Positions 12,018 to 14,426 of a stretch of 64,000 nt of DNA are shown here, piece after piece. Each line of letters opens with the position of its first letter. Within the stretch, counting starts at the first letter, position 1. Both the position numbers and the translations under genes were made by a program. The stretch lies in assembly GCA_018657065.1 (NCBI GenBank), contig JABHXU010000020.1:1-64000 (forward strand). The letters are read 5' to 3'. Below the pieces are notes generated by a model, which searched no databases, was not told the origin of the DNA, and saw nothing but the letters and a program-made list of their open reading frames with translations. The stretch comes from an archaeon. Its GTDB lineage: Archaea > Nanobdellota > Nanobdellia > Woesearchaeales > GW2011-AR15.

Positions 12018-12497
12018 TTAAATTGAAACAAGTACTTCTGTTTCATTTATTCTCATTATATCAATTAAACCTTTTATTTTTAATCTGTCAACATACCTAT
12101 AAAACGTAGCTTTTGAACAAAGACCTTCTGAATCTACAACAATATCTTTTATTTCTGGAATTGTTAAATTCTTTTGAGAAGCAAGATTTCTTATTCTTGC
12201 AACTAAAATACTTTTTCTTTTTTTATTGATCTTTTTTACAAAAGAATTTTTGTTTGGTGTTTGTTTAAGAGTTTCCTTTACAATTTGAGAAATAATCATA
12301 GGATCAAGGTTATTTCCTTTTGTATTGTTAGATAATTGATTAGATACTACTTCTTGTTTAAGTTTCAAATTCTCCTGTAAAAGACGCTTTTGTTCTTGTT
12401 TCATCTCGTACATTTCTTCATTTAATTTTAACATATCATTCTTAATCTTAGAAAAAGCTTCTGAAATAGCAATTTTATCAATGTCACCCCCCGGCAT
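12018..12497 (-). CDS. Coiled-coil winged-helix regulator, probable owner of the TGAGAC array
   Basis: 159 aa from the ATG at 12497. The frame stays open to 12686, but that extension translates repeated TGAGAC boxes and reads as an artefact; a TATA-like element (around 12519-12530 on the minus strand) lies about 28 bases before 12497, as expected for leaderless transcription. Residues ~20-50 form a coiled coil (KLNEEMYEMKQEQKRLLQEN) that would mediate dimerisation. Residues ~95-159 look like a winged helix, with ATFYRYVDRLKIKGLI as recognition helix and wing. It is probably autoregulated through the boxes at 12534-12674 and may also act on the divergent gene at 12748. The effector is unknown. 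Confidence 0.7.
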   Translation of the reverse strand: MPGGDIDKIAISEAFSKIKNDMLKLNEEMYEMKQEQKRLLQENLKLKQEVVSNQLSNNTKGNNLDPMIISQIVKETLKQTPNKNSFVKKINKKRKSILVARIRNLASQKNLTIPEIKDIVVDSEGLCSKATFYRYVDRLKIKGLIDIMRINETEVLVSI

Positions 12498-12533
12498 AAA
12501 AATATCTAAAACATAACTGATATTTAAATTTTT

Positions 12534-12674
12534 TGAGACAAAAGTGAAACAATATTTTTCATTTATGAGACTAAAATGAGACAAATAGTTCCATAGGAAA
12601 TAAAGGGGTGTCTCAAATACAATTCTGAGACGAGAAAAATACAAACTGAGACAAAAAAAGATAGTTTTTGAGAC
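12534..12674. promoter_or_regulatory. Helically phased TGAGAC operator-like array (seven boxes)
   Basis: TGAGAC occurs on the plus strand at 12534, 12566, 12577, 12626, 12647 and 12669, and inverted (GTCTCA) at 12610. Most copies extend to TGAGACAAA. Start-to-start distances are 32, 11, 33, 16, 21 and 22; apart from the one step of 16 beside the inverted box, they are near multiples of the DNA helical repeat, so the direct boxes would lie on one face. The array fills the space between divergent genes 12018-12497 and 12748-13233, directly upstream of the regulator's TATA element. It is best read as the binding region of that regulator. Confidence 0.7.
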
Positions 12675-12715: not shown

Positions 12716-12747
12716 GATTAATATTAATTATTATGTTAGGTGATTAT

Positions 12748-13233
12748 ATGGTTGATATAAAAACTATTGATATTGATAAACCAGATGAAATGAATTTCAT
12801 ACTTGGTCAGTCGCATTTTATTAAGACTGTTGAAGATTTACATGAAGTTATGATTAATAGTGTTCCTGAATCAAAATTTGGACTTGCTTTTTGTGAAGCC
12901 TCAGGTCCCGCTTTAATTCGGTATAGTGGAACAGATGACGAATTAATTGAATTAGCTAAAAAAAATGCAGAAAACCTATCCTGCGGACATTCATTTATCA
13001 TATTTATGAAAGATTCATTTCCATTAAATTATCTCAATGCGATAAAAAACACAAATGTTGTAGTGAGAATCTTTTGTGCAACTGCTAATCCTACATCAGT
13101 AATTATTGCTGAAAATGAGCAAGGAAAAGGCATTTTAGGAGTTATTGATGGATTTAAGTCTAAGGGTATTGAATCAACAGAAGATCAAATAAAACGTAAA
13201 GAATTCCTTCGAATGATTGGATACAAACAATAA
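12748..13233 (+). CDS. Adenosine-specific kinase family protein (PF04008)
   Basis: 161 aa from the ATG at 12748. I prefer this start to the in-frame ATG at 12733 because AGGTGAT (12738-12744) lies just before it. The family signatures ILGQSHFIKTVEDLHE, FCEASGPALIRYSGTDDELIELAKKNA and FCATANPTSVIIAE are all present. PF04008 proteins form a small archaeal/bacterial family structurally described as adenosine-specific kinases. The physiological role is poorly defined, probably adenosine salvage. The gene is divergent from the TGAGAC-linked regulator. Confidence 0.9.
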   Translation: MVDIKTIDIDKPDEMNFILGQSHFIKTVEDLHEVMINSVPESKFGLAFCEASGPALIRYSGTDDELIELAKKNAENLSCGHSFIIFMKDSFPLNYLNAIKNTNVVVRIFCATANPTSVIIAENEQGKGILGVIDGFKSKGIESTEDQIKRKEFLRMIGYKQ

Positions 13234-13287: not shown

Positions 13288-13411
13288 GCGGGTGTAGCTT
13301 AGCTTGGTTATAGCGCTAGACTCATATGTTGTGAGTGATGAGCCGAAAGGCGATGACCATTACCTTAACCAAGAAATCTAGAGGTCGCGGATTCAAATCC
13401 CGCCACCCGCA
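13288..13411 (+). tRNA. Elongator tRNA-Met (CAU) with a 49-nt intron at 37/38
   Basis: Acceptor GCGGGTG (13288-13294) pairs with CACCCGC (13404-13410), discriminator A at 13411, CCA not encoded. The D-stem is GCT/AGC, the anticodon stem CTAGA (13316-13320) pairs with TCTAG (13377-13381), and the T-arm is at 13387-13403. The anticodon loop is CTCATAA with anticodon CAT; the loop and the GAGGTCGCGG context fit elongator Met rather than Ile2 or initiator. The intron is 13327-13375, in the canonical 37/38 position (shift of one base possible). I cannot draw a perfect bulge-helix-bulge. T-stem pair 53-61 is A13391/C13399, a mismatch. A run of T from 13414 probably ends transcription. Confidence 0.9.
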
Positions 13412-13472: not shown

Positions 13473-14426
13473 ATGGCAGACCTAGTTCCAAAAGTTACAC
13501 CAATTATTATTTTTGATCCTCAAGAAAAATCAATTAGAAGTAAAATTTAGGCGGTTAAAGGTACTTTTGATAGAACTATCCATTTTGAAAAAGATGATTT
13601 AGAAATAACAATTAATGACAATACTTATGACGATTTAGCGAGTCAATTAGACGTTGCTGTCTGGGGATTAGCTGATGGGCAACGTAATTATGTCGATATT
13701 GTTGGTAGAGAACTTTCCATAGACTATTTAACTGGTGGAAGAGTTGAAGGTGCAAGTAATAATTCAAATAATATTGTAAGAAAAATTAGTCCATTGCCTG
13801 AAGAAGTTCAAGCATACACTCAAGAAAGGATTGAAGCATTTAGATTACTTGACTCATTAAGAAATCTAGCTCCAAAGTATAATGAAAAAACAAATATCTC
13901 TTTAAGAAAAGATCCTAAAATGCGAGTAGAGGCTGCTGTAAATGCTATGTACTTGACCAATACTGATTCTCCAGATATTGAAAATATTGCTAATGCTGCG
14001 ATTTTATATCACGATGATCTTAGTACAGAAAACATTGATCATGCTGTTACTCAGTATAGTTTATCAAAAGGACAATTTGAAGACATTAGACAATTTTTTG
14101 ATGATTTAGATTTTGATGAAACTTATATGGGTGTTGTTGATAATGCCATAGAAAAATTAAATTTCATTGATGAATATATCAAACCTTTGATTGATGCTGC
14201 TCAAAAAGCTTCACATAAAAGAATAAATCAAATTTCTGCAGATCAATTAAAAGATGTTGAATTTGAATATCATGTATCAATCGCTGGAAGACCAAAAACT
14301 AGAGCATTAAAGTTACATTATGAGGGACTTATGGCAGTATTACCTAGAACTATTGAAATTCCAGATAAAATAAAACCATCACTAGATTTAGACAATACAC
14401 TTTCTATTCTAGGTTATAAAAATTAA
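13473..14426 (+). pseudogene. Unknown gene interrupted by an in-frame amber codon at codon 26
   Basis: From the ATG at 13473 (MADLVPKVTPIII) one frame runs to the TAA at 14426 with a single TAG at 13548-13550. The segment after the TAG (13551-13793) reads like real protein and joins seamlessly with the longer open part, and it contains no good start before a TTG at 13794. Ignoring the TAG, the product would be about 317 aa, acidic and soluble, beta-rich then helical; no family recognised. TAG ends other genes here (for example tpiA), so it is a normal stop. The gene may be a recent pseudogene, a sequencing error, or use readthrough. It overlaps the convergent 14423-14731 by 4 bases. Confidence 0.6.

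Follow-up and report, generated by a model that had tools for sequence, protein, structure and literature searches.

What does a tight array of short repeats, built around a single predicted initiator site, do beside the gene of a small winged-helix protein in an archaeal chromosome? The locus lies in a 64-kb stretch of DNA (the window, by which we mean the whole stretch that was analysed). A sequence-only reading had taken the array for the operator of the adjacent regulator.

The array, its ORB and the adjacent gene

A hexamer search recovered seven exact TGAGAC/GTCTCA copies at 12534-12674, six direct and one inverted, just as that reading had described. They are set out here with the features around them.

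12018-12497, minus strand: gene of the array-linked protein, 159 aa (MPGGDIDK...EVLVSI), start placed by alignment of 16 homologues
12512-12530, minus strand: AAAAAATTTAAATATC on this strand, probably the regulator gene's TATA region, between array and ATG, from reading the sequence
12534-12539, plus strand: TGAGAC box 1 (hexamer search)
12545-12550, plus strand: degenerate box TGAAAC, 11 bp from box 1, from reading the sequence
12566-12571, plus strand: TGAGAC box 2 (hexamer search)
12577-12582, plus strand: TGAGAC box 3 (hexamer search)
12588-12609, plus strand: predicted Orc1/Cdc6 site, an origin recognition box (ORB), GTTCCATAGGAAATAAAGGGGT, 0 mismatches to the pattern TTCCANNGGAAANNAAGGGG
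12610-12615, minus strand: inverted TGAGAC box abutting the ORB (GGGGT-GTCTCA; hexamer search)
12626-12631, plus strand: TGAGAC box 5 (hexamer search)
12647-12652, plus strand: TGAGAC box 6 (hexamer search)
12669-12674, plus strand: TGAGAC box 7 (hexamer search)
12733-13233, plus strand: divergent PF04008 (Adenosine_kin) gene, E=3.8e-72, a neighbour that the conserved unit does not include

The rest of the window holds 8 further copies, all scattered, and the overall count of TGAGAC equals its expected frequency. GTCTCA shows the strongest clustering among the window's hexamers, and 200 Markov simulations never placed more than 2 copies in 141 bp, against the 7 observed. Searches of the genome with an extended box and with box pairs, a check that the earlier reading had proposed, found no comparable second array. 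The same reading had called the gap otherwise AT-rich, but at 77% AT against 75% for the window it is not specially so. The direct boxes are spaced by 32, 11, 49, 21 and 22 bp; phasing judged from the window alone is modest (p ~0.04), and the 49-bp middle step is not a whole number of helical turns.

ORBs are the binding sites of Orc1/Cdc6, and known ORB origins usually carry several of them. The window contains the sequence by which ORB origins are recognized, TTCCAnnGGAAA..AGGGGT, with 0 mismatches to the search pattern, and its ORB is identical to ORB2 of Methanomassiliicoccus luminyensis at 20 of 22 bases (PMC4153887). It is a single copy, and the window thus lacks several ORBs flanking an unwinding element; two or three are found in a minority of homologous loci. 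The inverted box starts at the base right after the ORB ends, and this GGGGT-GTCTCA junction recurs in several genomes of the same family. Neither the ORB nor the array's conservation across the order had been noticed in the sequence-only reading.

The 159-aa protein combines a long N-terminal helix (coiled coil) with a C-terminal winged helix whose recognition-helix motif is CSKATFYRY; an AlphaFold2 model (mean pLDDT 82) places the helix at residues 6-56 and the winged helix at 83-158. Its open frame extends through the array to 12686, with conservation only from 12497 on. Pfam and NCBIfam scans of the protein returned no family above cut-off, a Cdt1-like family included. Neither WhiP nor Cdt1 was among its top fold matches, all of them generic winged helices with E values no lower than 0.001; the plasmid segregation protein TubR, itself a winged helix, is among these weak matches. 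AT-rich, TATA-like stretches occupy the same place in homologues of the 5' type. The first codons of the gene also hold a conserved G run (ATG..GGGGG..), which may act as a protein, translation or DNA signal, seen in the window at 12480-12497 (minus strand) and in L010, L011, L014, L017, L024 and L025.

Conservation and co-variation across the order

In a search of 279 genomes of the phylum, 74 of 75 matches to the 159-aa protein fell in one order, and the remaining match is weak and from the same class. Where records are named, the homologues belong to Candidatus Woesearchaeota or Nanoarchaeota, among them the complete genome GW2011_AR15 (AR15, CP010425). The comparison covered 39 distinct loci with a CSKA[TS]FYRY helix in the protein, and three or more boxes within 250 bp were counted as an array. 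The array is present in 37 of these and has an ORB inside it in 32. Absence of the array from relatives that keep the regulator had been named as grounds for abandoning the sequence-only reading; the array is instead kept almost throughout. Nor are such arrays uncommon in DPANN genomes, as had been supposed, in that the unit of TGAGAC array, ORB and coiled-coil/winged-helix gene is found across many families of this order. Several draft contigs (G005 C184, G007 C72, G000 C24, G003 C12 and G012 C48) stop within ~0.5 kb of an array or of the ORB cluster at orc1, and draft assemblies may therefore miss arrays that fall at a break.

In ORB searches of 60 whole genomes of relatives, many of the matches fell either near orc1/cdc6 or at the array locus. 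Matches away from the array were mostly near orc1/cdc6, and genomes drawn later mostly showed the same linkage. AR15 has 3 matches to the ORB pattern in 1.15 Mb of genome. The orc1/cdc6 locus, with several ORBs, is the other origin candidate; in the window's genome orc1/cdc6 lies on a different contig (C24) and is not adjacent to the array.

The proposed helix phasing, modest in the window, is very strong over 30 homologous loci, which contain 51 adjacent direct box pairs exactly 11 bp apart and have a phasing vector strength of 0.46, where the null reached at most 0.17. In the family to which the window belongs, one flank of the ORB carries boxes near -66, -55, -44, -34 and -23 and, in most loci, the inverted box at -7; the other flank carries them near +36, +47, +68 and +79. 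This layout around the ORB is shared between genera, with 11-bp shifts.

Box sequence and recognition helix change together. Proteins with CSKA[TS]FYRY accompany TGAGAC boxes, those with CSKSSFYR[IL] mainly TGGGAC/TGGGAA (GTCCCA/TTCCCA) boxes, and those with CGRTxF repeats of GGTTC-, CCGAAC- or CCGGAC-like type. The pattern is imperfect, with L019 having no boxes and L028 and L031 deviating. Because direct binding predicts such co-variation, we infer that the TGAGAC boxes are probably bound by the adjacent winged-helix protein. Linkage to an ORB was observed in the TGAGAC group alone; in SKSS-type relatives the array is 5' of the gene and has no linked ORB. Sister subfamilies (L023, L030, L032, L252, L256, L026-L038) likewise have arrays of their own, TGGGAC/TGGGAA or GGTTC/CCGGAC-like and without an ORB, some of which apparently extend into coding sequence.

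The position of the array relative to the gene varies. Of the 32 ORB-bearing loci, 25 have the array immediately 5' of the gene, and the other seven have array and ORB together 3' of it; at L163 they occupy a stretch between two same-strand genes. The 3' arrays indicate a unit that is independent of the gene's promoter. Of the operator reading, the boxes, their phasing and the probable binding by the winged-helix protein hold up; that the array is simply an operator is not supported.

A probable ORB-containing origin and its alternatives

Related units occur on mobile elements. L277 (IMG/VR) is a complete circular element of 3511 bp, as judged from a 127-bp terminal repeat, and its winged-helix gene contains 11 boxes, most of them inside the coding sequence. 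It also encodes a NikA-like protein, a serine resolvase and a 377-aa putative NTPase, in which a Walker-A-like stretch was read by eye. No family scored above cut-off for this last protein, a PDB sequence search was empty, and its single-sequence fold (pLDDT 37) was too poor for use. On a second viral contig, L278, a DnaB helicase is encoded close to the winged-helix gene and its boxes. No ORB was found in L277 or L278. Among viral contigs we found no further relatives, and none of 120 GTCTCA-triplet stretches among the matches listed encodes the protein motif; plasmid records gave no match.

GC skew gives a mixed picture. In the complete AR15 genome (99% of sequence covered), the detrended cumulative skew reaches its minimum at 873,172; the array and gene, at 870.3-871.0 kb, are ~2 kb away. 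For skew inversion at 20-150 kb the array is among the highest-ranking 0.2-1.4% of sites, whereas nothing stands out at the orc1 ORB site; the skew range is only weakly above that of block-shuffled controls (p 0.02-0.39). Elsewhere, the inversion across the array is positive in 5 of 13 genomes, and no skew minimum was seen there in G116, of which 40% was sampled. The same test is positive at 5 of 8 orc1 ORB loci in other genomes, which speaks to its low power, and clear peaked skew has been found in only 18 of 224 archaeal genomes (PMC7111523). Local skew was therefore dropped as a general proof of an origin, and the case for one draws on ORB linkage, the mobility of the unit, the mobile elements and the skew of a single genome.

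Helix-phased boxes built around an ORB beside the gene of a DNA-binding protein probably mark a previously undescribed kind of chromosomal origin. In our preferred reading, to which we give a probability of roughly 0.6, the array is where the coiled-coil/winged-helix protein binds at a second replication origin, one that contains an ORB and is additional to that at orc1/cdc6. The protein would sit as dimers on the 11-bp-phased TGAGAC boxes along one face of the helix, on both sides of the ORB, and Orc1/Cdc6 would bind the central ORB; the two proteins may then form a joint initiation complex, and the site would fire as an origin. Where the promoter adjoins the array, the protein would probably also repress its own gene. 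Against an origin stand the mixed skew, the other candidate at orc1/cdc6, the single ORB of most array loci and the lack of any linked ORB in the SKSS-type arrays and of any ORB in L277 and L278.

It is conceivable, though in our view unlikely, that the locus serves cell-cycle-coupled autoregulation, with the protein repressing its own gene through the boxes, Orc1/Cdc6 co-regulating from the ORB, and no start of replication. That most ORB-bearing loci have the array just 5' of the gene, preceding a TATA-like stretch, would suit such a role, as would the 5' arrays of SKSS-type relatives that have no linked ORB. The seven loci with array and ORB 3' of the gene, the arrangement at L163 and the placement of most L277 boxes within coding sequence all fit it poorly, and it does not predict the AR15 skew minimum. 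Simple autoregulation as the whole story is set back by the 3' arrays that keep their ORB.

Less likely still is a centromere-like or nucleoid-anchoring site, where a partition or tethering complex would assemble on the array beside an Orc1/Cdc6 site and initiate nothing. The single array site found in the genome, a phased array and a coiled coil suited to a higher-order complex, and the appearance of TubR among the weak fold matches are all in keeping with this idea; yet no partner ATPase or filament gene was found beside the arrays inspected, the fold matches are to generic winged helices above E=0.001, and a centromere role alone leaves the ORB unexplained. A chance or low-complexity repeat, which a window of 75% AT with TGAGAC at its expected overall frequency might have allowed, is effectively ruled out by the simulations and by the array's retention in 37 of 39 loci.

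A broader proposal, to which we give about even odds, is a two-initiator origin of Woesearchaeota, with an ORB for Orc1/Cdc6 set in a phased array for a lineage-specific initiator, captured from mobile elements, and with helix and boxes diversifying together.

Known systems and neighbouring genes

The closest comparison in logic may be Sulfolobus oriC3 and WhiP, a chromosomal site that likewise lies beside a winged-helix gene other than Orc1/Cdc6 and for which capture from an extrachromosomal element has been proposed (PMC4010727, PMC5333045); here, related winged-helix proteins occur on a circular element. The proteins look unrelated, in that WhiP is a distant Cdt1 homologue and family scans and fold matches found none such for the present family. 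Furthermore, oriC3 reportedly has neither ORB nor mini-ORB (PMC4010727), whereas the array described here has an ORB inside it. With ORB-type origins beside orc1/cdc6 the array shares an ORB nearly identical to the archaeal consensus (PMC4153887). It differs from them in usually having one ORB, set among a second family of boxes, and in lying 402 kb from orc1/cdc6 in AR15 and on another contig in the window's genome. The Sulfolobus protein UBP and the ucm origin motif add a protein and a motif to archaeal origins besides Orc1, as the winged-helix protein and its boxes would here, but UBP has hundreds of genomic binding sites (PMC12141716), and the present array occupies one locus next to the gene of its own protein.

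The repeats also recall iteron replicons. In these, plasmid Rep proteins with winged helices act on direct repeats, and there, as here, repeats spaced by helical turns lie beside or inside the gene of the probable binding protein. However, we found no sequence relation to Rep families, and the array is mostly chromosomal and combined with an ORB.

No described replication origin for Woesearchaeota was found in the literature searched, and the signature of phased TGAGAC array, ORB and CSKA[TS]FYRY gene offers a recognizable locus for origin tests in this group. The array-linked protein is a candidate for an additional initiator family, and the joint change of helix and boxes across subfamilies amounts to a protein-DNA recognition code. 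If correct, the origin reading would extend the idea that archaeal origins can be captured from mobile elements.

On the far side of the array, the place taken by the PF04008 gene in the window is occupied by other genes in relatives. The array had been seen as a boundary between the regulator and this gene, a view that is not supported, as the divergent gene differs among relatives; regulation of the PF04008 gene by the array was rejected because the neighbouring genes are not conserved. Further along the plus strand lies a tRNA with a probable intron (13288-13411; Rfam RF00005, 55 bits), which ARAGORN missed in bacterial mode. It is followed by a 317-codon frame (13473-14426, plus strand) with one in-frame TAG at codon 26, which could reflect a pseudogene, a sequencing error or read-through.
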